From a virus: DNA of 38,477 nt. A program made the translations under genes and the position numbers. The notes under the pieces were generated by a model. It was not told the origin of the DNA and searched no databases. It saw only the letters and a program-made list of their open reading frames with translations. The stretch lies in IMG/VR virus record IMGVR_UViG_3300030450_000479, positions 1 through 38,477 of that record; one strand, 5' to 3'. Every line of letters starts with the position of its first letter. The first letter of the stretch is position 1. Below are positions 1,775-37,163 of this stretch, one piece after another.

Positions 1775-3484
1775 GTGCAACCTTTACCAGAGAAATTACA
1801 AGACTTTAGATACTTTCTAATTCTTACTTGGAGGCATCTAAATCTCCCAGACCCAACACCAGTACAACTAGAAATAGCTGAATACCTTCAACACGGCCCT
1901 AGAAGAAAAATAATTCAAGCTTTTAGAGGTGTAGGTAAATCTTGGATTACTTCTGCTTATGTAGTTTGGAAACTACGCATGGATCCACAATTAAAGTTCC
2001 TTGTGGTTTCAGCTTCTAAAGATAGAGCAGATAACTTCTCTACTTTCACTATGAGACTAATTAGTGAAATGGATGTATTAGCTCCTTTACGTCCAGATGC
2101 TTCCCAAAGAAACTCTAAAATAAGCTTTGATGTAAGACCTGCTAGAGCTGACCATGCTCCCTCAGTTAAATCTGTAGGTGTATTAGGTCAAATGGCAGGT
2201 TCTAGAGCAGATGAAGTTGTAGCTGATGACGTAGAAGTTCCAAACAACTCCTTCACTCAACCTATGAGAGACAAACTCTCTGAAGCTGTTAAAGAATTTG
2301 ACGCAATCCTTAAACCTAATGGCAAAATTTGTTTCCTAGGTACTCCGCAAACTGAGCAAAGTTTGTACTTAACCCTAGAAGAAAGAGGATATGAAACTTG
2401 CATTTGGCCTGCTAGATATCCAAACCTTAAAAACAACTATGGAGACAGACTTGCTCCTAAAGTTCATAAAAGGCTCCTAGATGAGGTTGTAAGCCCTAAA
2501 GATCCTGTTGATCCAGATAGGTTTAACTCTATAGACCTAATGGAAAGAGAAGCTTCCTACGGGCGTTCTGGCTTTGCTCTCCAGTTTATGCTGGATACTT
2601 CTCTCTCAGATCAAGATAGATATCCTCTTAAACTTTCTGACCTAATAATTTCTTCAATTAACCCTGATCATGCTCCAGAAAAAATAATATGGTCTAACTC
2701 TCCTGAATATTCCTTACAAGATCTTCCTTGCGTAGGTTTTAACGGAGACAGATATTACAGACCTGCACAAGAGTTCGGAGATTGGATCGAATACACAGGC
2801 TCAGTTATGTCTATTGACCCCTCAGGGAAAGGCAAGGACGCTACAGGTTACGCAATTGTCAAGATGTTGAATGGAAACTTATTTGTTTCTGATGCTGGTG
2901 GCCTAACAGGTGGTTATGACGAACCTGTTTTAGAAAAACTTTCTCGTCTTGCTAAAAAACACAACGTTAACCAAATAATTGTTGAAGAAAACTTCGGTGG
3001 TGGAATGTTTGCTGAACTTCTAAAACCCTACTTAATGCGTATTCACCCTTGTGCTGTAGAAAACGTACGAAATAACAAAACCAAAGAGTTCAGAATCATT
3101 GACACCCTTGAACCTGTAATGAACTCTCACCGATTAATCATTGATAGGAAAGTCGTAGAAAAAGACTACAGATCCAATACAAATGAGGCACCAGAACGAA
3201 AGCTAAAACTTCAACTCTTTTATCAGATGAGTCGCATAACACGTCACAAAGGATCCTTAGTCCATGATGACATCCTAGATGCTCTATCTGGTGCTGTCTC
3301 TTACTGGACTGAATACATGTCTGCTGATGAAGACCGCAACATTAAATCTAGACAAGATGAACTTCTTCGTATCCACCTAGATGATTGGGGTGACTCCATG
3401 AATAACACCATCACACAAACAGCTATGGGTATGTCCCTTGACCAAATAAGACAAACTTCTTCCTCCTCTAATTCAATGTTCTAA
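1775..3484 (+). CDS. Terminase large subunit, packaging ATPase and nuclease (T7 gp19-like)
   Basis: This 569-residue protein has a GTG start. The ATPase P-loop is FRGVGKSW with Lys55. The Walker B-like acidic stretch VVADDVE follows at 148-154 (Asp151, Asp152, Glu154), with coupling segment CFLGTPQ at about 186-192. The C-terminal nuclease domain shows MSIDPSGKGKDATGYAI (Asp348), IIVEENFGGGMF (Glu404/405) and a late HDDILDALSGAV acidic motif, as in RNase H-fold terminase nucleases. The length is close to T7 gp19 (586). It pumps DNA into the prohead at the portal and cuts concatemers. In T7-like genomes this gene lies at the right physical end, which agrees with the repeat-rich gap that follows. 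Confidence 0.95.
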   Translation: MQPLPEKLQDFRYFLILTWRHLNLPDPTPVQLEIAEYLQHGPRRKIIQAFRGVGKSWITSAYVVWKLRMDPQLKFLVVSASKDRADNFSTFTMRLISEMDVLAPLRPDASQRNSKISFDVRPARADHAPSVKSVGVLGQMAGSRADEVVADDVEVPNNSFTQPMRDKLSEAVKEFDAILKPNGKICFLGTPQTEQSLYLTLEERGYETCIWPARYPNLKNNYGDRLAPKVHKRLLDEVVSPKDPVDPDRFNSIDLMEREASYGRSGFALQFMLDTSLSDQDRYPLKLSDLIISSINPDHAPEKIIWSNSPEYSLQDLPCVGFNGDRYYRPAQEFGDWIEYTGSVMSIDPSGKGKDATGYAIVKMLNGNLFVSDAGGLTGGYDEPVLEKLSRLAKKHNVNQIIVEENFGGGMFAELLKPYLMRIHPCAVENVRNNKTKEFRIIDTLEPVMNSHRLIIDRKVVEKDYRSNTNEAPERKLKLQLFYQMSRITRHKGSLVHDDILDALSGAVSYWTEYMSADEDRNIKSRQDELLRIHLDDWGDSMNNTITQTAMGMSLDQIRQTSSSSNSMF

Positions 3485-4205: not shown

Positions 4206-4264
4206 TTTAAAAAGCGCTAGATAATGTTAGAATGAAATTAGATAGCAGCTTTACTTGTTATCTA
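4206..4264 (+). promoter_or_regulatory. Candidate host promoter for early genes, with a 5' hairpin
   Basis: TTTAAA (4206-4211) and TAGAAT (4228-4233, five of six bases of TATAAT) are separated by 16 bases, a reasonable sigma-70 layout. The expected transcript start is near 4240. There TAGATAGCA (4239-4247) pairs with TGTTATCTA (4256-4264), with one G-U, around an 8-base loop, so the early RNA would start with a stem-loop. It is followed by CCCAGAACCTATTCA just before the ATG at 4287. That block is related to the one at 5188-5204. The -35 box is poor. Confidence 0.45.
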
Positions 4265-4286: not shown

Positions 4287-4505
4287 ATGAACATCTTCCA
4301 AGAGATCTCAGCAACTGTCTTAGACATTCCAGTTCATCTAGATGATTGGAGTTACAACAGGAAGAGAGATCTACACGAAGCATCAGCAAAGCTCTTAAAT
4401 AAACTCCCAGATGGTTTTATGTGGATCTTTCCTAATTCTGTAATCTTCAGAGCTATGGAATTAATGAGAGAGGAAGCAAGAGACCTATATGGAGAGGAGC
4501 TTTAA
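4287..4505 (+). CDS. First early gene, small protein of unknown function
   Basis: This 72-residue protein starts MNIFQEISATVLDIPVHLDDW. It is the first gene after the long control region, so it is probably expressed right after infection. No Shine-Dalgarno sequence is visible; instead CCCAGAACCTATTCA lies just upstream, as in two other early leaders of this window. The sequence is helical, with Trp and Phe scattered among charged residues (WSYNRKRDLHEASAKLLNKL, EARDLYGEEL) and no membrane segment. It looks like a small soluble protein, perhaps a host-takeover factor. No family recognised. Confidence 0.65.
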   Translation: MNIFQEISATVLDIPVHLDDWSYNRKRDLHEASAKLLNKLPDGFMWIFPNSVIFRAMELMREEARDLYGEEL

Positions 4506-4531
4506 TATCCCTGGCGGGATAATTTGATGAT

Positions 4532-4597
4532 CCTATGGAGCCTCTTAGGAGGTTCCACAGGCTCTTCTAATGAGCCTTTTACAACAGCCCAGAACAA
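4532..4597 (+). promoter_or_regulatory. RNA element A: alternative hairpins before the second early gene
   Basis: Hairpin 1 pairs CCTATGGAGCCTC (4532-4544) with GAGGTTCCACAGG (4549-4561), with one A-C mismatch and one G-U. Hairpin 2 pairs AGGCTC (4559-4564) with GAGCCT (4572-4577) and is followed by TTT, like a small terminator. The two share 4559-4561, so they compete. CAGCCCAGAAC follows just before the ATG at 4598. A smaller stem, TATCCC/GGGATA, lies at 4507-4521. The element at 5105-5204 has the same plan with compensating changes in the stem. It looks like an attenuator or a translation-control leader. Confidence 0.65.
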
Positions 4598-4741
4598 ATG
4601 ACTGAACAAGAACTATTCGAGGCGTTTGGTATTCCTTATAGGAGTCCAAGAGAACTAGAAGAAGAGAAGTTAAAACAGTATCGGCAAGCGAAAGCAGCTG
4701 ATGATTGGTTATTTAATGACTCTGATTCTTTACCTGAATAA
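4598..4741 (+). CDS. 47-residue acidic early protein
   Basis: The ATG at 4598 opens a frame ending with TAA at 4739-4741. The product is MTEQELFEAFGIPYRSPREL followed by EEEKLKQYRQAKAADDWLFN and an acidic tail DSDSLPE. It lies between RNA element A and the next gene, which starts two bases after its stop. This tight spacing supports it as real. It is strongly helical and charged, without a membrane segment. Function unknown; small acidic early proteins of T7-like phages often inhibit host enzymes, but nothing here identifies a target. Confidence 0.6.
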   Translation: MTEQELFEAFGIPYRSPRELEEEKLKQYRQAKAADDWLFNDSDSLPE

Positions 4742-4743
4742 CT

Positions 4744-5103
4744 ATGGAATCCATCAGGACTTATTACACAGAATATGCGCCAAGTCTTATAGATCTTTGG
4801 TCTAAATATTTAGCTCATGAAGATGTAATGACAAGTCATTATGCAGGGCCACAAAAACAATCTAAGGATTATGACCCTGAAAAAGAAGCTCACTTTGGTT
4901 TTGAGGTAGAAGATCCTTGCATTAGTGATGATGAAAGGATTTTATTTGAATGCTTCAGAGACAAAGTAAAAGTAATTCATCTTTATTCTTCACCTGAAAG
5001 TAAAGAGCTTGAATATGGAGAAGAGCACATGATGACTCATGAAAACTGCTTAGCTTATTTAGCTCAATTACCAAGATCTTGGTATAGTTTCTGCTCCAAA
5101 TGA
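4744..5103 (+). CDS. Early protein of unknown function
   Basis: This 119-residue soluble protein begins MESIRTYYTEYAPSLIDLW. It starts two bases after the preceding stop and ends two bases before the left arm of RNA element B (5105). It is acidic and aromatic-rich, with several His (HEDVMTSHYAG, EEHMMTHENC) and three Cys. It has no membrane helix or recognisable motif. It is probably cotranscribed with 4598-4741. The element after it could stop transcription, since hairpin A there ends in CTTTTTAT. No family recognised. Confidence 0.65.
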   Translation: MESIRTYYTEYAPSLIDLWSKYLAHEDVMTSHYAGPQKQSKDYDPEKEAHFGFEVEDPCISDDERILFECFRDKVKVIHLYSSPESKELEYGEEHMMTHENCLAYLAQLPRSWYSFCSK

Positions 5104-5104
5104 T

Positions 5105-5204
5105 GAACCTATGGAGGGTCTTTTATGACCTTCCACAGGTTCCTTTTTATAAGGAGCCTACAAGTAGTGCTTTAGCGCTACACAAGCCCCAGAAATCTAT
5201 TCAC
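5105..5204 (+). promoter_or_regulatory. RNA element B: alternative hairpins, paralogue of element A
   Basis: Hairpin 1 pairs 5105-5120 (GAACCTATGGAGGGTC) with 5127-5142 (GACCTTCCACAGGTTC). Its single A-C mismatch and G-U pair fall in the same places as in element A. Its tip GGTC/GACC replaces CCTC/GAGG of element A, so pairing is kept while the sequence changes. Hairpin 2 pairs AGGTTCCTT (5137-5145) with AAGGAGCCT (5151-5159) and shares 5137-5142 with hairpin 1. A third stem, GTAGTGC/GCGCTAC, lies at 5164-5181. CCCCAGAAATCTATTCAC then leads to the ATG at 5205. Hairpin 1 plus CTTTTTAT could terminate transcription. Confidence 0.7.
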
Positions 5205-5387
5205 ATGTATTCAAACATCAGCATGTCTTCTAATAAGGAGACAATCGTTACTAGTGCCCTTGAGATTATTGATAGTCAAGAGGGGCAGATCAAAGCTCAA
5301 ACAGGAACAATTCAAGAGCTACGGGAAGAAAAGCAAGTCTTAGTATCCCTAGCTGGAATTTTATTTATTATCCAATTGCTTTTTTAA
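5205..5387 (+). CDS. 60-residue coiled-coil protein with C-terminal membrane anchor
   Basis: The frame is open from 5100, but the upstream part is RNA element B, so I choose the ATG at 5205 (MYSNISMSSNKET); 5223 is an alternative. Residues 15-45 form a charged helix (EIIDSQEGQIKAQTGTIQEL, REEKQ). The last 16 residues are hydrophobic (LVSLAGILFIIQLLF), a tail anchor in the inner membrane. Small tail-anchored proteins of early regions can act in superinfection exclusion or membrane takeover; this is only a suggestion. The next gene starts four bases after the stop. Confidence 0.6.
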   Translation: MYSNISMSSNKETIVTSALEIIDSQEGQIKAQTGTIQELREEKQVLVSLAGILFIIQLLF

Positions 5388-5390
5388 CTT

Positions 5391-5681
5391 ATGTTGAAGT
5401 GTCCATCCTGTGGAACAAGCAGTCTCTCCTCCTCTGGGGGAGATTCTGTTGTTTTGGAGTCACGCAATAGGGAAGAAACAACTCCTTATTTAAGACGTAG
5501 AAGAAAATGTACCTGTGGCCATCTATTCACTACAAGAGAATATGAAGTTGATGAACTTAAATCAATCTTCAGAGAGAAGAGCAGGAAGGCTAATAACCCA
5601 GAAGTAAAGACGGAAGAATTGGAAGATATTCTTCAAGATCTAAATGCATGGGTTGATCAACTAAACAAGGAGGATTCCTAG
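5391..5681 (+). CDS. NrdR-like zinc-ribbon protein
   Basis: The protein has 96 residues. Its N-terminus closely follows the zinc-ribbon module of NrdR, the bacterial repressor of ribonucleotide reductase genes. Cys4-x2-Cys7 is followed by VVLESRNREE (NrdR has V-I-D-S-R), RRRRKC at 35-40 and LFTTREYE at 45-52 (NrdR: RFTTYE). The second knuckle is Cys40-x-Cys42, one residue shorter than the usual C-x2-C. The ATP-cone domain of NrdR is missing; instead an acidic helical tail follows. Zinc and DNA binding are likely. It could mimic or compete with host NrdR to free nucleotide supply, but no target box was identified. Confidence 0.7.
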   Translation: MLKCPSCGTSSLSSSGGDSVVLESRNREETTPYLRRRRKCTCGHLFTTREYEVDELKSIFREKSRKANNPEVKTEELEDILQDLNAWVDQLNKEDS

Positions 5682-5872
5682 TGCCAATTAACAAAGAAGA
5701 CTTTAATGGCATCTCTAACAAGGTTAAGGAGTGTCTAAACATTCTTACTGAGCTACCAGACAGTGAGAAAAAGCAGTTAGCGATTCTTATGATTGCTCAA
5801 ACTGTGTCTCCTAAGTTTGCTGCTGAGACAGCTAACTTTATGCTTGAGTTAAATGAGTGGGAGAATATTTGA
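5681..5872 (+). CDS. 63-residue helical protein of unknown function
   Basis: The GTG at 5681 overlaps the upstream TAG by one base and has an excellent ribosome site, AAGGAGG, seven bases before it. The product (MPINKEDFNGISNKVKECLN...) is wholly helical in pattern, with amphipathic segments LNILTELPDSEKKQLAILMI and AAETANFMLELNEW. It has no membrane helix of usual length and no known motif. It is embedded in a tight early operon between the zinc-ribbon protein and 5872-6066. No family recognised. Confidence 0.65.
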   Translation: MPINKEDFNGISNKVKECLNILTELPDSEKKQLAILMIAQTVSPKFAAETANFMLELNEWENI

Positions 5873-6066
5873 TGTACTATCATTCTTTTTCTAGTGCTTT
5901 GTCTAAGAAACTATTTGTAATTAAGATCTCTGATTCTAATTACGATCCAAGTGTCAGAACTGAACTAATCACTGCATCTTCTGCAAAGAAAGCAGTTGAA
6001 ATAGCAAGGGATAAATGGCCTGAAGCTGATGGGATGATGGTTGTTGATAGTAGGGAATTAATCTAA
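5872..6066 (+). CDS. 64-residue protein of unknown function
   Basis: I choose the ATG at 5872 (MYYHSFSSALSKKLFVIKIS). It overlaps the preceding stop as TGATG, typical of coupled translation. A longer frame from 5857 would lie inside the previous gene. The pattern suggests a small alpha/beta fold: strand KLFVIKIS, then ELITASSAKKAVEIARDKWP (helix), then GMMVVDSREL (strand). This resembles many small phage proteins in which a helix follows an 'S-x-x-x-A' turn. No specific family recognised. It is the last gene before the integrase. Confidence 0.6.
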   Translation: MYYHSFSSALSKKLFVIKISDSNYDPSVRTELITASSAKKAVEIARDKWPEADGMMVVDSRELI

Positions 6067-6136: not shown

Positions 6137-7027
6137 ATGCCCAGAAGCAAAGTCCAAAGCTTGAGTGATTGCCCATGTTTATCTCAGGCTATAAGGACTG
6201 TCTACAACAGACGAAAACGTGGTAAAGCAGATGGTGATAACTGGTTAATAGCTATGGATCATATAAAAAAGATCCTTGGTGACATACCAGTTAATGAAAT
6301 CACTACTCAATCAGTGAATCAAATTGTTGATGCACTCCAGATCAGGCCATATCACAACAGCAATAAGACGATTAATAAAAAGGTTTCGGCCTTAAAAGTC
6401 TTGTTAATGGATATGGAAGATGATGGACATCTAAGCCTGATCAAACTTCCAAGACGATTAAAAGAAGAGAAAGGCCGTATTCATTTTCTTACTGAGGAAA
6501 TGGAAGATGACCTGTTAAATACTTTTCTTTCATGGAAGTTATATGTACACCATGATTTTGTTAAATGCTTAATAGATCTTGGTTGCAGAAGGGGTGAACT
6601 TCTTGGCTTGCAAAAAATGTATATTGATTTTCAATTGAATCAAATTACTTTTGCCAGGAGGAAATGTGATAATCCTGTCAGTGTTCCTATGACTGATACT
6701 GTTCAGCAGATATTACGTCCTTATTATTTAAGGTGTAAGCCTGCTGATAAGTTGTTTCCTTATAGTGAGGATTGGATTACTAAGACGTGGAATAAGGTTA
6801 GGGATTATCTAGGTTTTGCAGAAACAAAATGGTATGTACCGCATATATGCAGGCATACTTGTGCTACGAGGTTGGTTCAGCGTGGAGTTGAACTTGGAAT
6901 TGTTAGGGATTGGCTAGGCCACTCTAATATTTCTATGACCTGTCAGTATGCACACTTTGCACCTAAACAATTACATGGAGCAGTTCATGTACTAAATATA
7001 AAGAAAATAACGTCATCAGTGGCGTAA
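6137..7027 (+). CDS. int: Tyrosine-type integrase
   Basis: This is a site-specific recombinase that would insert phage DNA into the host chromosome and help excise it. I choose the ATG at 6137 (MPRSKVQSLSD, 296 residues), which has an AGGAGG site six bases upstream; the frame is open from 6080. An N-terminal core-binding helical domain (about 14-115) is followed by the catalytic domain. Arg151 lies in GCRRGEL. His236-x-x-Arg239 is in HICRHTCATR, His262 in LGHS, and the nucleophile Tyr271 in TCQYAHF. All key residues are present, so it should be active. In marine cyanopodoviruses such as P-SSP7 the integrase sits ahead of the RNA polymerase and the attachment site lies nearby; no tRNA-like match is visible here. 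Confidence 0.92.
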   Translation: MPRSKVQSLSDCPCLSQAIRTVYNRRKRGKADGDNWLIAMDHIKKILGDIPVNEITTQSVNQIVDALQIRPYHNSNKTINKKVSALKVLLMDMEDDGHLSLIKLPRRLKEEKGRIHFLTEEMEDDLLNTFLSWKLYVHHDFVKCLIDLGCRRGELLGLQKMYIDFQLNQITFARRKCDNPVSVPMTDTVQQILRPYYLRCKPADKLFPYSEDWITKTWNKVRDYLGFAETKWYVPHICRHTCATRLVQRGVELGIVRDWLGHSNISMTCQYAHFAPKQLHGAVHVLNIKKITSSVA

Positions 7028-7127: not shown

Positions 7128-9539
7128 ATGGATCAAGCCCAGATTCAAATCCAAATTGAGAATGAAATGGCGGGAAGAGGTTATGACTCTTACCGTAGAA
7201 AAGTACAAAACAACATAGAAAAAGGTAGAGAGTCAGATAATCCTTATGCCATCACCATGATGAAGGCAGGATTACAACCTTTTGTTGATGAGATTGGTAA
7301 GTTTATTGATAGAGCATGGAGAGCTAAGCCAGGAAGAAAAGCAAGAGCTGCTGTCTTACTTCAAAAGTTTAAAGACATAGATGTTGTTGCTTATATCGCT
7401 TTTAAAGCTGTGTTAGATAATGTTAGTCAACATAAAACTACAGCTGCTGCTGTAGCAGTAAAGATAGGGAACCTTTTAGAAGATGAGGTTAAGTTTTCAG
7501 CTTTTAATCAGGATGATCCTAAACATTTTGAAGCGCTAAAAGATCATATAAGTGATACAAAACACTATGGCTATAGAAGGTCTATGGTGCTTGGTCACAT
7601 GAGAAATAGAGGCTATACATTTGAACCTTGGAAGAAAGAAGACAAGCTTAGAGTAGGTCTGACTCTGATTGACCTGTTAATGAAGTCAGTTGGCTTGGTT
7701 AAGTTAGTGAATAAGGGGTATTTATTTAACAAGACAAAGAGAACTTATCTTGAATTTACTGAAGCTAGCTTGGCTTGGGTAAAGAGACAAAGAGTTAATA
7801 GATTAGCTGCTTATCCATTGTTAATGCCTTGTCTTATACAACCTAAAAACTGGTCTAACTTTGAAGATGGTGGCTTTTATACAGAAAGACTAAGGAATAT
7901 AAAAGCAGTTAAGACAAAAGGAAATGACTATTCAAAAGAGTTTGACGAAGAGAATCCAGAAATCTTTTATCAAGGATTAAATGCTTTACAAGGTACTGAG
8001 TATGGAATCAATGAAGTTGTTATAGAGACTGCTAACTACTGCTGGAATACAAATACAGAAGTTGGTGATCTTATAGACGCTGAACCAATACCTATACCTC
8101 CTAAACCATTTGATATAAATACAAATGATGATGCTAGAAAGAAATGGAGAAGAGAAGCCTCAATCACACATGACACTAACGCACATAACAGAGCTAAGAG
8201 ATTTCAAAATATATGTATTTTAGATACAGCAGAGAAATATAAAGACAAGTCATTTTTTCATGTTCATCAGGCAGATTTTACTGGACGCTTATATTCAGTA
8301 TCTGGGTCATTTAATCCACAGGGAACAGATCTAACAAGAGGACTGCATAAGTTTAAGAAAGGCGCTCCCATTAGAAATGAACAAGATAAGAATTGGCTTT
8401 GTATTGCTGGTGCAAATCATTGGGGTATGACTAAGGCCAGCTATAAGGAAAGAATTGAATGGGCTAATAACGAAGGTATTCATATAGCTAGGAACGTTGC
8501 TGGTAATCCTGAGAGTTATGTGAGTTTATGGAGTAAAGCAGAAGAACCTTGGCAATTCCTTAGTTGGTGTCTAGATATGAATGGTTTAGATGAGCAGGGT
8601 TATGGGTTTGTTAGTCATCATCCAGTCATGCTTGATGGAACCAATAATGGGTATCAACATTTTGCTGCAATGGTATTAGATAAAGATCTAGCTAACTCAG
8701 TTAATTTATGTAAGTCAGATGAACCACAAGATTTATATGAAAACATAAGAACTAATTTATTGTTTAATTTATCAGTTGACCAAGAATTATTAGCACAAGA
8801 TTGGTTTAATCATAGAGAATTTATAACAAGAAAGCTGATAAAGAAACCTATTATGATGATTCCTTATTCAGGTACATCCTTTGGTATTGCAACTAGTTTA
8901 AAGGAATATTTTGTTAAACATAGTATAGAAGTACCGTGGGGTACACAGACATTTAAACATTATCATTTCCTAGCAGAAAAGATCAAAGAATCTGTTGCTA
9001 ATGTATGTCCTTGTTCTACTGATGTAATGTCTTATTTAACAACATTAGCTAGGTGTTTTTCTAAAGAAGAGAAACAGATTGAATGGCTGACACCTTCTAA
9101 TTTTTTAGTCAGACAAAATTATTTAAAAGTAAAACGTAAAAAGATTAAAACCCAGATGGGTCACAGCACTATTAGGTTAACTCTTCAAGAAGATATAGAT
9201 GAGTTAGATAAAAGAAGAACAGTCAGAAGCTTTCCAAGTAACTTCGTTCATAGTCTAGATGCTGCCAATGTTCACTTAGCTTTAGAGAAAGCAAAGAGCA
9301 GGGGAATAGATCAAGTTTGTACGATTCACGATTGTTATGGAGCAGTTGCAGGACAAATAGAAGACTTTGTTACTTGTGCTAAGGAAAGTTTTGTAGAAAT
9401 TTATCAGAATAATGTATTAGATGATCTATATGATCAAGCTTCTACTCAGTTAGATGATCCAAGTAAATTACCAGCACCACTAGAAATGGGAGATTTTGAT
9501 ATAAAAGAAGTTATGTCTGCTCCTTATGTCTTTAGTTAA
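7128..9539 (+). CDS. T7-like single-subunit RNA polymerase
   Basis: The 803-residue enzyme transcribes phage middle and late genes. Catalytic motifs match the T7 family. Motif A is QADFTGRLYS with Asp383 (T7 Asp537), followed by SFNPQGTDLTRGL as in T7. The DGTNNGYQH block follows. Motif B has Lys572 and Tyr580 (KKPIMMIPYSGTSFG), spaced eight residues as in T7 Lys631 and Tyr639. Motif C is IHDCYG with His734 and Asp735 (T7 His811, Asp812). It is shorter than T7 (883), mainly in the N-terminal promoter and RNA-binding region. It is an RNA polymerase, not a DNA polymerase. The ATG has AAGGAG six bases upstream. The C-terminus YVFS ends near the position of the T7 'FA' tail. Confidence 0.95.
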   Translation: MDQAQIQIQIENEMAGRGYDSYRRKVQNNIEKGRESDNPYAITMMKAGLQPFVDEIGKFIDRAWRAKPGRKARAAVLLQKFKDIDVVAYIAFKAVLDNVSQHKTTAAAVAVKIGNLLEDEVKFSAFNQDDPKHFEALKDHISDTKHYGYRRSMVLGHMRNRGYTFEPWKKEDKLRVGLTLIDLLMKSVGLVKLVNKGYLFNKTKRTYLEFTEASLAWVKRQRVNRLAAYPLLMPCLIQPKNWSNFEDGGFYTERLRNIKAVKTKGNDYSKEFDEENPEIFYQGLNALQGTEYGINEVVIETANYCWNTNTEVGDLIDAEPIPIPPKPFDINTNDDARKKWRREASITHDTNAHNRAKRFQNICILDTAEKYKDKSFFHVHQADFTGRLYSVSGSFNPQGTDLTRGLHKFKKGAPIRNEQDKNWLCIAGANHWGMTKASYKERIEWANNEGIHIARNVAGNPESYVSLWSKAEEPWQFLSWCLDMNGLDEQGYGFVSHHPVMLDGTNNGYQHFAAMVLDKDLANSVNLCKSDEPQDLYENIRTNLLFNLSVDQELLAQDWFNHREFITRKLIKKPIMMIPYSGTSFGIATSLKEYFVKHSIEVPWGTQTFKHYHFLAEKIKESVANVCPCSTDVMSYLTTLARCFSKEEKQIEWLTPSNFLVRQNYLKVKRKKIKTQMGHSTIRLTLQEDIDELDKRRTVRSFPSNFVHSLDAANVHLALEKAKSRGIDQVCTIHDCYGAVAGQIEDFVTCAKESFVEIYQNNVLDDLYDQASTQLDDPSKLPAPLEMGDFDIKEVMSAPYVFS

Positions 9540-31491: not shown

Positions 31492-33528
31492 ATGGCTTTA
31501 GATTTTCCCGCTAGTCCTAGCAATGGTGATACTCATCAATCAACTAATGGTATTCAATACGTTTTTGATTCCACTAAATCTCAATGGAGATCTCAAGGGG
31601 AGTTTTCTACTGGTGCAATAGAAGCTAAAAAAATAGATAATATCAGTGGAAGTTTTAACGGTAATACTGTTACCTTTACTTTAAATAGTGATGGTGCTGT
31701 TGTTAAGCCTCAAAATAGTCAGTCATTGCTTATAACTTTAAATGGTTTAGTTCAAGAACCTGGTACAGCTTATACAACTAGCATTACCACTGGTCAGATT
31801 ACTTTTACGTCAGCACCTACTTCTGGTACTACTTTTATAGGTGTTGTTTATTCAAGATTACCTATAAGTTCTTCTACTACGTTATCCACTACTGGTGGAT
31901 CAATGACAGGAGATATTGTTTTTAACAGTAGTCAAACCTTTGCTATTGGTGGAATACAAGATGGTAATACTTCTCAAAAAGGTGTTGTTCAATTAAGTAC
32001 TTCAACTACAAATACTAGTGAAACATTAGCTGCTACTGCTTCAGCAGTTAAATCTGTTAAAGATGCTATTCCTAGTAATCTTGGTGATTTAAGTAACGTA
32101 TCTTCTTCTTCTCCTTCTACTAACCATGTATTGAAATGGTCTGGTAGTGAATGGGCTCCTAGCGCAGAAAGTGGTGGTGCTTCTACCCTTGCTGCTTTAA
32201 CTGATGTTTCTTCTGCTACTCCTAGTAGTGGTCAAGTACTGAAATACAACACAGCTAGTAGTCAGTGGGAACCAGGTACAGATAATACAGGTGGAGGAAG
32301 TGGAGGAACAACAAACTTAGGTGCTGTAGCTAGTGGTGCTGCTTTAACGATTACTTCTAGTAGTGGTGATGATGCAAGTATTCCATCAGCTACTACTTCT
32401 AGTTGGGGAGTAATGACAGATGAAGATAAAACAAAATTAGATGGTATTGCTACTGGTGCTACTGCTAATGCAGGAACAGTTACAGCAGTAACAGGTACAA
32501 GTCCTATTGCTTCTAGTGGAGGAGCTACACCAGCTATTTCTATTACCGCAGCTTCTGGTAGTGCAGCTGGTTCAATGAGTTCTGCTCATTACACAAAATT
32601 AGAAGGTATAGCAGCATCAGCTAATAATTATGCAATATCTGCTGATCTATTAGATGAAGATGATCTTGCTACAAATAGTGCTACTAAAGTAGCTAGTCAA
32701 CAATCAATTAAAGCTTATGTAGATACTGCTGATGCTTTAAAAGCTAATCTTGCTGGTCCAGCTTTAACAGGTACAACAACAGCAGTTAACCTTACATTGT
32801 CAGGTAATTTAACTGTTAATGGTACTACAACTACAGTTTCTAGTACAAATACAACGATTACAGATAACTTATTAGAATTAAACAGTGGTGCTTCTAGTAA
32901 TGCTAATGATTCTGGAATAATTATTGAACGTGGTTCTACTGGTGATAATGCAATAATCGCTTGGGATGAAAGCGCTGATAAATTTACAGTTGGTACAACA
33001 ACAGGTACAGCAGATTCAACTGGTGATATATCAATAACAACTGGTACTTTGGTTGCAAATATAGAAGGTAATGTTACTGGTAATACTTCAGGATCATCTG
33101 GATCTTGTACTGGTAATGCTGCAACAGCAACAGTAGCAAGTGGACTCACTGGTTCACCTAACGTCACTGTTGGAACAATAGGTTGTGGTGCTATTACTGG
33201 TACTTCAACAGTCAGTGACAGCATAGGGAACCTTCGTACTATTGTTCAAAATACACAAGGTTCTGCTTATACATTAGTTGCTGCTGATGCTGGTAAACAT
33301 ATCTTAGCTAGTGGCAATATCACAGTCCCTGACAGTGTTTTTACAGCTGGTCAAGCTATTACTCTCATCAATAACAGTGGATCAGATATAACAATTACCA
33401 AAGGAACAACTATGTATAACACCGCAGATGCTGAGAATGCCAATCGCACACTTGCGGGAAGAGGAATGGCAACTCTATTATTTACAGCTGCTGATACCTG
33501 TTACATCTCAGGTGCAGGATTATCTTGA
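31492..33528 (+). CDS. Second fibre-like structural protein
   Basis: The 678-residue protein is rich in Ser, Thr, Gly and Ala. It begins MALDFPASPSNGDTHQSTNG and IQYVFDSTKSQWRSQG, a start I recall from marine phage fibre proteins. The ITLNGLVQEPGTAYTTSITT and ITFTSAPTSGTTF module follows (residues 80-110). Later come collagen-like or shaft-like repeats (LAALTDVSSATPSSGQVLKY) and a C-terminal region ending near ITLINNSGSDITITKGTTMY. The last part resembles a fibre tip. It probably forms an accessory fibre or extends the gp17-like one. The start has no clear ribosome site; the gap to the upstream gene is 9 bases. Confidence 0.75.
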   Translation: MALDFPASPSNGDTHQSTNGIQYVFDSTKSQWRSQGEFSTGAIEAKKIDNISGSFNGNTVTFTLNSDGAVVKPQNSQSLLITLNGLVQEPGTAYTTSITTGQITFTSAPTSGTTFIGVVYSRLPISSSTTLSTTGGSMTGDIVFNSSQTFAIGGIQDGNTSQKGVVQLSTSTTNTSETLAATASAVKSVKDAIPSNLGDLSNVSSSSPSTNHVLKWSGSEWAPSAESGGASTLAALTDVSSATPSSGQVLKYNTASSQWEPGTDNTGGGSGGTTNLGAVASGAALTITSSSGDDASIPSATTSSWGVMTDEDKTKLDGIATGATANAGTVTAVTGTSPIASSGGATPAISITAASGSAAGSMSSAHYTKLEGIAASANNYAISADLLDEDDLATNSATKVASQQSIKAYVDTADALKANLAGPALTGTTTAVNLTLSGNLTVNGTTTTVSSTNTTITDNLLELNSGASSNANDSGIIIERGSTGDNAIIAWDESADKFTVGTTTGTADSTGDISITTGTLVANIEGNVTGNTSGSSGSCTGNAATATVASGLTGSPNVTVGTIGCGAITGTSTVSDSIGNLRTIVQNTQGSAYTLVAADAGKHILASGNITVPDSVFTAGQAITLINNSGSDITITKGTTMYNTADAENANRTLAGRGMATLLFTAADTCYISGAGLS

Positions 33529-35772: not shown

Positions 35773-36326
35773 TCCAATTCAAATCATTTAATGGCCTAAC
35801 TTCTCTTGTGTTGGGTGGTGGATTAATAGCAACTAACTTTATGAGCTTAAATTTACTAGCTCGTAAAGATAGTGGCATTCCTGATATAGCCAAGCTTTCT
35901 AACACTCCTTACAGTTCAATTCAAATCAGAAGCGAAACTGGTGCTGATGGTGCAGAAGAGTGGAGTTTTAATTCTCGTCAACATGATCCAAAGACTATGT
36001 TGACTTATACCGATTCAGAACAACCTACCTTTAACGGAAAGATCAAGAAGAACTTCACTCACAAAGAATCTGTAGCTCAGTTCGTTATTTATCCAAAAGG
36101 TGAAGGAGGAACACTTACAGCAGAACAAATAGCTTGTATAGAGAAACAAGCCCAGGGAAGGAGTAATGGAATGATGATGGCTGATGCTGGATCAGTTCAA
36201 GTCACACCTGCCCTTGCTGGAATACCAATAGTCGGTCCAGTATTAGCTGGAATTTTCTTTGGACAAGCTAGAAAACAAGCAGGAAATGTTGCAAGTGATA
36301 TTGCTGGTCAATGGAATGATTGCTAA
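35769..36326 (+). CDS. Membrane-anchored protein of unknown function
   Basis: 185 residues. An N-terminal hydrophobic segment (about 9-29, GLTSLVLGGGLIATNFMSLN) is followed by a soluble middle: IQIRSETGADGAEEWSFNSR, QHDPKTMLTYTDSEQPTFNG. A second hydrophobic, Gly/Pro-rich segment lies near the end (about 145-166, VTPALAGIPIVGPVLAGIFF). Cys residues occur at EQIACIEK and at the very C-terminus (QWNDC). A periplasmic domain between two membrane segments is one possible layout. It is coupled to its neighbours on both sides. No family recognised. Confidence 0.65.
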   Translation: MIQFKSFNGLTSLVLGGGLIATNFMSLNLLARKDSGIPDIAKLSNTPYSSIQIRSETGADGAEEWSFNSRQHDPKTMLTYTDSEQPTFNGKIKKNFTHKESVAQFVIYPKGEGGTLTAEQIACIEKQAQGRSNGMMMADAGSVQVTPALAGIPIVGPVLAGIFFGQARKQAGNVASDIAGQWNDC

Positions 36327-37163
36327 GTGGAAATAAAAGCTCCATTTGTAGCTGAACCAAGAGTTAAAAATCTTCCAGAAATAGTCTTAGTACCACCTGC
36401 TGAAATAATTCCTCCTACAACATTAGGTGAATTACCTTTTGGTTTTGTTCCAATAATTGAACTTCCTTGTGTCTTGGCACGCAACAGAAATTCAGGGGTT
36501 GGAGATGAAATGTTTAATGTTGACCCTCAAAACAATTTAGCCCTTTGTGATCATGCTTCCGTTGTAGTTGTTGCAACGGATGACGGGGCAATTCCTCAAG
36601 ATATATCAGATATGATCCCCAAGCCAGAAACACCTTTTGAATTATTAAATGCTTTAAACCATGAGGGAGAGGAAATGAAAGAGAAGGATGGAGAAGAAAA
36701 CAACAAAGAAGATACCAACGTAAACCAAAATTTGACCCTCAATTTAAATACTGGACCTAATGATACGGGTTTTATTGCAGAAAGCCTGCCCTGTCCACCA
36801 CTTGATACACTTGCTAAAACTCCTATTGGTTCTTTAGGTAAAGGAGGACTTGCAAGAATTAAAGGATGGATAAGAAATGAAACTGATGGAAAATGTGAAA
36901 CAGTCTGGGAAGGTTTAAATCCGATAGAGATTGCTGGTAATTACGCTCCACAACCTACGGTTTTAGTCAATACAAGTGCTATTGCAGTAGCAAGTGTCCT
37001 TGCTGTTGGTACTTTGCAACCCTACATAAAAATCGTACAAAAACAGATACAAAAGCAAGTTAAAAAAAGATCAAAGGTGTTGGCTAAGAAATTCTTTAAG
37101 AAGAAGGAGAAGTTATTGTCCCTTTCTGAAAGGAGAAAGGCTCAGAGGGATCTTCGGAAATAG
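36327..37163 (+). CDS. Pro-rich protein with C-terminal membrane segment and basic tail
   Basis: The GTG start follows the previous stop directly. The 278-residue protein begins with a Pro/Val-rich stretch (about 8-45, PEIVLVPPAEIIPPTTLGEL). A domain with several Cys (ELPCVLARNRNS, LALCDHA) follows. A Glu/Asn-rich linker lies near 110-135, then a second domain with LPCPPLD and KGGLARIKGWIRNETDGKCE. A hydrophobic segment at about 211-233 precedes a 44-residue Lys/Arg-rich tail. The basic tail probably stays in the cytoplasm, with the large N-terminal part outside. The last 68 bases overlap the convergent gene at 37096-37818. I cannot name a family. Confidence 0.65.
   Translation: MEIKAPFVAEPRVKNLPEIVLVPPAEIIPPTTLGELPFGFVPIIELPCVLARNRNSGVGDEMFNVDPQNNLALCDHASVVVVATDDGAIPQDISDMIPKPETPFELLNALNHEGEEMKEKDGEENNKEDTNVNQNLTLNLNTGPNDTGFIAESLPCPPLDTLAKTPIGSLGKGGLARIKGWIRNETDGKCETVWEGLNPIEIAGNYAPQPTVLVNTSAIAVASVLAVGTLQPYIKIVQKQIQKQVKKRSKVLAKKFFKKKEKLLSLSERRKAQRDLRK

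Follow-up and report, generated by a model that had tools for sequence, protein, structure and literature searches.

Evidence for a repeated two-state RNA leader at early gene junctions in relatives of MPP-C cyanopodoviruses

The early region and its two elements

The stretch of DNA analysed here, referred to as the window, is a single virus record of 38.5 kb. Its gene order is T7-like: the large terminase gene is followed by a group of small early genes, an integrase and the RNA polymerase (Table 1), and genes for SSB, endonuclease and primase/helicase lie 3' of the RNA polymerase. The primase is 60% identical to that of P-SCSP1 phages and the RNA polymerase 42% identical to that of P-SCSP2, both of which belong to the MPP-C cyanopodoviruses, where a DNA polymerase gene is absent (PMC9860041). 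By protein similarity, the phage clade of the window is a relative of these DNA-polymerase-less viruses of ocean cyanobacteria.

Just 5' of the first early gene, at positions 4206-4233, is a promoter-like sequence, TTTAAA-16-TAGAAT with an extended -10, and at the matching place in relatives, the leader of the first gene has a conserved TATAAT-like box and a hairpin. Five relatives (L098, L229, L235, L238 and L239) have an apparent strong intrinsic terminator, AGAGACCATATAAACCTATGGTCTCTCTCTTTTTTT, 5' of gene f1, and a second early promoter may lie in the conserved stretch that comes after it. A TATCCCTGGC/TATCCCTAGC block is found at 4506-4530, before the first element described below, and again at 5344-5365, within the coding sequence of f1, and has the appearance of a leftover from recombination with f1. 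The TATCCCTGGC block is not supported as a phage promoter, given its second occurrence within a coding sequence and its lack of enrichment in the window. Adjoining the array is the constant early gene f2 (5391-5681). In L063, the relative of this gene has a match to an NrdR-like zinc-ribbon domain (PF22811, E 3e-8), and f2 could encode a transcription regulator of the DNA-binding type.

A sequence-only reading of the window had described a pair of related RNA elements with a shared frame, and CCTATGGAG...TTCCACAGG is indeed present at 4532-4561 and 5108-5139, a number of matches (2, against a mean of 0.01 in shuffles) that is far beyond chance. As claimed, the tips of the two stems differ in sequence and keep their pairing (CCTC/GAGG in copy 1, GGTC/GACC in copy 2), and an A.C mismatch and a G.U pair are common to both. 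Each element consists of a core helix, P1, flanked by a strand x on its 5' side and a strand y on its 3' side, and y can pair either with x or with a further downstream strand z to form a second hairpin, P2. The alternative stems of the earlier description, AGGCTC/GAGCCT in copy 1 and AGGTTCCTT/AAGGAGCCT in copy 2, correspond to these y and z strands. Single-sequence folding of the full elements gave z-scores of -3.3 for copy 1 and -5.6 for copy 2. The CCCAGAA block lies before the start codon in both cases as reported, but the 7-mer by itself is not rare, with 7 occurrences in the window against 4 expected.

Table 1. Genes and element features of the early region, in window coordinates
Feature	Position	Strand	Remark
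Large terminase	1775-3484		
Small early genes	4287-6066		
Integrase	6137-7027		
RNA polymerase	7128-9539		
Element copy 1 (x, core helix P1, y, z)	4529-4577	+	covariance model match, 76.9 bits, E 4e-22
Copy 1 strand x, GATCCT	4529-4534	+	pairs with y and follows its changes among copies
Copy 1 core helix P1 (TGGAGCCTC / GAGGTTCCA)	4536-4557	+	mismatch A4535 with C4558; pairing and mismatch conserved
Copy 1 strand y, AGGCTC	4559-4564	+	common to both alternative stems
Copy 1 strand z, GAGCCT	4572-4577	+	3' arm of P2
Copy 1 start-associated motif CCCAGAA	4588-4594	+	before ATG 4598
Small early gene f3, behind copy 1	4598-4741	+	without Shine-Dalgarno
Element copy 2 (x, core helix P1, y, z)	5105-5159	+	covariance model match, 65.1 bits, E 2e-18
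Copy 2 strand x, GAACCT	5105-5110	+	begins 1 nt past TGA stop of upstream gene (5101-5103)
Copy 2 core helix P1	5112-5135	+	mismatch A5111 with C5136
Copy 2 strand y, AGGTTC	5137-5145	+	extended as AGGTTCCTT
Copy 2 strand z (AAGGAGCCT)	5151-5159	+	
Copy 2 optional extra hairpin, GTAGTGC/GCGCTAC	5164-5181	+	between P2 and start motif; absent in some relatives
Copy 2 start-associated motif CCCAGAA	5188-5194	+	before ATG 5205
Gene f1, behind copy 2	5205-5387	+	

The optional hairpin of copy 2 is expanded in L222 and absent in L063. An open reading frame drawn from 5100 reads through copy 2 because the loop length of that copy happens to preserve the frame. A leader peptide (ATGATCCTATGG, encoding MILW...) was rejected, as its start varies among copies (GACGAT, GTTAAT) and the frame is not kept by hairpins of 28-33 nt. 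A hidden Shine-Dalgarno sequence, GGAG, inside P1 was likewise rejected, the site changing to GAAG, AAAG or GCAG among copies.

A repeat family and the covariation of its pairings

Searching 2.9 million viral contigs (IMG/VR) with an exact pattern recovered about two dozen more copies with the same flanks, and a covariance model built from 27 copies found in this way identified 53 confident main-type copies on 21 viral contigs. A diverged type, with 11 copies, precedes gene f1 in about a dozen relatives (the f1-type leaders). The description of a duplicated pair was thus correct as to the two copies and understated the extent of repetition in related phages, where an early region can hold up to about five. 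All copies are on the coding strand of the early genes, minus-strand matches being weaker palindrome shadows, and the covariance model found no confident copy outside the early region of the larger records. In mapped loci, the elements precede small early genes upstream of the integrase and RNA polymerase, which bears out the position before start codons in the early region that was proposed from the window.

Matches in IMG/VR came only from the window phage's own clade. It was not found in P-SSP7, Syn5 or P-SCSP1u, a BLAST of the element region against phages returned nothing useful, and 1.5 Mb of control viral sequence gave 0 covariance-model matches at E<=1e-4. Rfam 15 produced no match in the window, with only chance-level matches far below the gathering threshold at the elements. 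A host origin was rejected: 86 exact-pattern matches in bacterial genomes look like chance, only two having even a few paired tip bases and none having P2 or the start-motif context. Degenerate patterns for lower-stem variants gave mostly chance matches, of which the covariance model confirmed none at E<=1e-4 in 1.5 Mb, and an architecture match at L229:2156 proved to be G-rich sequence with no relation to it.

Homologues in the related phages keep the pairing predicted from the window. The core helix P1 is paired in 99.8% of cells across the 53 copies, and P1 together with the outer x:y pairs (columns 7-9 with 39-41) in 99.7%, with two-sided changes at 7 of the 12 pairs; sliding the partner by one column reduces whole-structure pairing to about 60% or less. 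Two-sided changed cells number 122, compared to 36 in shuffles (0 of 500 shuffles reach the observed value), counts that do not stand for independent events, the family copies being related; the shuffles take no account of relatedness. Under a tree-based null, the best-scoring pairs are P1 or P2 pairs or direct neighbours of these. Furthermore, one position inside P1 is conserved as a mismatch. Column 10 with column 38 is A.C in 40 copies, C.U in 8, U.U in 3 and A-U in 1, and is therefore unpaired in 51 of 52 copies; a change of C38 to U is nearly always accompanied by a change of A10 to C or U. Pairing is avoided at this position (1.9%, versus 18.4% in shuffles), and the conserved 1x1 mismatch points to recognition of the core helix. 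Within stems, G.U cells greatly outnumber A.C cells (80 versus 3), so the plus-strand RNA appears to be the selected form.

The competing hairpins claimed for the window are also borne out by the family, as both partners of y follow its changes. For instance, AGGCUC as y is found with GAUCCU as x and GAGCCU as z, AGGUUC with GAACCU and GAGCCU, AGGGUA with UAUCCU and UACCCU, and AGGCUU with AAUCCU or GAUCCU and AAGCCU. In its variable half, x is paired with y in 121 of 159 cells, compared to 105 +/- 2.3 in shuffles (p=0.0002, in a permutation without phylogeny), and the corresponding value for distinct x/y/z combinations is p=0.0008. The variable cells of z are paired with y in 155 of 159 cases, a score biased upward by the choice of z as the best complement of y. 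RNAalifold, supplied with no structure, returns the x:y form, including a covarying pair between columns 4 and 45. Constrained folding favours y:z in 37 of the 53 copies (median 2.1 kcal/mol), the modelled energy gap between the two states being small and model-dependent. The x:y pairing has a second mismatch (U.C) in 30 of the 53 copies. In all 11 f1-type leaders, x:y and y:z are fully paired and the mismatch and G.U pair are kept, though the sequences of x, y and z differ. Because x and z both track changes in y, the competition between the hairpins is genuine; judged by covariation, one strand enters two exclusive pairings that both covary, as expected of an alternating-structure leader. 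These alignments are evidence for a two-state RNA whose folding has clearly been preserved by evolution.

Stop codons, start sites and cassette junctions

The last base of the upstream stop codon lies a median of 0 nt from the element (10-90%: -4 to +18), and the end of P2 a median of 21 nt from the next ATG, a tight spacing for which compaction alone could account. A long distance separates the f1-type leaders from any upstream stop codon. None of the 53 genes behind an element has a Shine-Dalgarno sequence (<= -5 kcal/mol), versus 44% of the other early genes (p=7e-6), and they begin in more open regions than other genes do (0.62 versus 0.50, p=2e-8); the integrase and RNA polymerase have AAGGAG-type Shine-Dalgarno sites. 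A CCCAGAA or CAACUGAA-type motif is located just 5' of the starts, and a different hairpin followed by such a motif precedes the array's first gene.

The genes on either side of an element vary among phages. The pairing of f9 and an element is followed by f17, f38, f33 or f3, that of f17 by f12, f13 or f35, that of f10 by f15, f26 or f3, and that of f19 by f3, f15 or f13, while the right end of the array is constant (f1, f2, f5, f6, integrase, RNA polymerase). Most of the cassette proteins tested are unknowns. Repeated throughout the clade, the elements form a family that sits where exchangeable early gene cassettes meet, and they border a rapidly changing repertoire of small early genes, the usual place for host-acting genes.

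In layout, the closest known system is SAS/ESAS of cluster K mycobacteriophages, where a 13-bp GGGATAGGAGCCC motif with ribosome-binding potential, of unknown function, is present in many copies per phage, only in the non-structural gene region, directly before start codons and with an inverted repeat 5' of the start motif, and is tied to varying gene families (PMC3203893). Like these, the cyanophage elements are repeats tied to the starts of a subset of non-structural genes. Unlike them, they lack a Shine-Dalgarno sequence, and their pairing and alternative pairing are backed by covariation, whereas the ESAS arms were judged by their authors not to pair as RNA (PMC3203893). The only match to GGGATAGGAGCCC in the window, with 2 mismatches, is at 32153, away from the elements.

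Possible roles of the alternating pairings

In our leading reading, held tentatively, the element acts as a bistable leader between cistrons and governs how each early cassette is translated or processed, with a trigger and an output that we infer. It would act in cis as a plus-strand RNA module between early genes, or in the f1 leader. The core helix with its 1x1 mismatch always forms, and y folds either back to x, giving a single long mismatched hairpin, or forward to z, giving P2 beside the core helix. About 21 nt past P2, the next gene begins at an AUG lacking a Shine-Dalgarno sequence, in an open region with the CCCAGAA or CAACUGAA-type motif. The exchange of x, y and z would decide use of this downstream start, cutting of the polycistronic early message there, or both, and each early cassette would be expressed as a unit on a host-transcribed early message. 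The core helix and mismatch may serve as a handle for a host or phage RNA-binding protein or a double-strand RNase. At intercistronic copies, x would be occluded by a ribosome halted on the upstream stop codon, tipping the balance to y:z. A ribosome trigger cannot be general or sole, given the long distance between the f1-type leaders and a stop codon. Of the translation switch suggested from the window, a role at the level of translation or processing fits the Shine-Dalgarno-less, open start sites, and attenuation by termination is not supported.

Alternating-stem leaders such as trp-type attenuators and the expression platforms of translational riboswitches rely on exclusive 1:2 versus 2:3 pairings, and the cyanophage element resembles them in this logic. 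It differs in that neither a terminator stem nor a hidden Shine-Dalgarno sequence was found, in having no known ligand, and in being repeated at several gene junctions of one genome. The family is apparently an undescribed cis-acting alternating RNA leader, unusual in its repetition at cassette junctions.

The first alternative, which we consider unlikely if still worth weighing, is an RNase processing site or mRNA stabiliser, in which a double-strand RNase cuts the long mismatched hairpin, or the hairpins shield early messages from RNase E, with the exchange only tuning cutting. In T7 early mRNA, RNase III sites are hairpins with an internal mismatch or loop between early genes, upstream of the RNA polymerase. 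The cyanophage elements also supply one hairpin at early gene junctions, with a conserved mismatch and fixed core pairs, and Prochlorococcus RNase E goes up during P-SSP7 infection and phage RNAs require protection (PMC9692554). However, at about 9-10 bp, or 15-17 with x:y, the core is on the short side for RNase III, and the helix is shorter than in the T7 sites, from which the element also differs in its three-strand exchange and strict core sequence. The T7 early region (first 9 kb) gave no covariance-model match, and plain cutting or shielding needs no two covarying alternatives.

Less probable again is an operator at which a phage or host RNA-binding regulator, seated on the core helix and mismatch, represses or activates all early cassettes jointly. 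The near-invariant core pairs, the mismatch kept unpaired and the many identical copies per genome would suit such a protein, but no candidate protein emerged, and the constant neighbour f2 is NrdR-like and would be of the DNA-binding type.

That the element acts on host RNA polymerase, as a transcription attenuator, intrinsic terminator or put-like antiterminator, we regard as improbable. Elements occur only in the host-transcribed early region, and many copies have TTTT after P2, in line with the T-runs noted earlier behind the stems of the window. The T-run is not conserved across the family, a terminator scan flags neither window copy, and the f1-type leaders continue into A-rich sequence (CAAAAG or AAAAAG); for these reasons terminator-type attenuation is disfavoured. 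The two adjacent hairpins recall HK022 putL and putR, which serve one early operon each and are RNAs of about 70 nt with bulges and a triplex that bind the zinc-binding domain of RNA polymerase (PMC9378689). The likeness is one of look only, early-region phage RNA with two stem-loops: the cyanophage element is present in up to about five copies per early region, and HK022 gave no convincing covariance-model match (best E 0.14, at a site matching only the outer letters).

The least probable reading is a DNA-level, attC-like site for cassette exchange by the nearby tyrosine integrase: gene order does change at elements and the integrase gene lies downstream, but the elements have a single orientation and keep G.U over A.C, the attC core (GTTRRRY/RYYYAAC) is absent, with GTTRRRY in 3 of 52 copies and at neither window element, and gene shuffling is sufficiently explained by ordinary homologous recombination at repeated sequence.

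Returning to the bistable leader, an extension that we offer as speculative and rather unlikely as a whole is that each exchangeable cassette carries its own copy of the switch, whereby new genes would be regulated at once, one host or phage factor or event would flip all copies in the early phase, and the regulatory linker would double as a recombination joint. If a regulatory RNA does travel with each cassette, it would show phages plugging in early genes without new control.

The family is a well-supported structured RNA in relatives of abundant marine cyanophages, and a possible diverged copy lies in a cultured phage. The covariance model did not find it. In P-SCSP2 (OM416780, L220; host Prochlorococcus MED4), a hairpin with a 2x2 internal loop is located at 36252-36336, between the early genes 42 and 43, starting a few nucleotides past a stop codon and followed by AGAACC and ATG. 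Its x, y and z strands are UCUUUC, GAAAGG and CCUUUC, the hairpin region has a z-score of -3.9, and each genome strand has 0-3 x:y:z-like arrangements, against mostly none in shuffles. These features are suggestive, and a true copy would make the question testable in a cultured phage.
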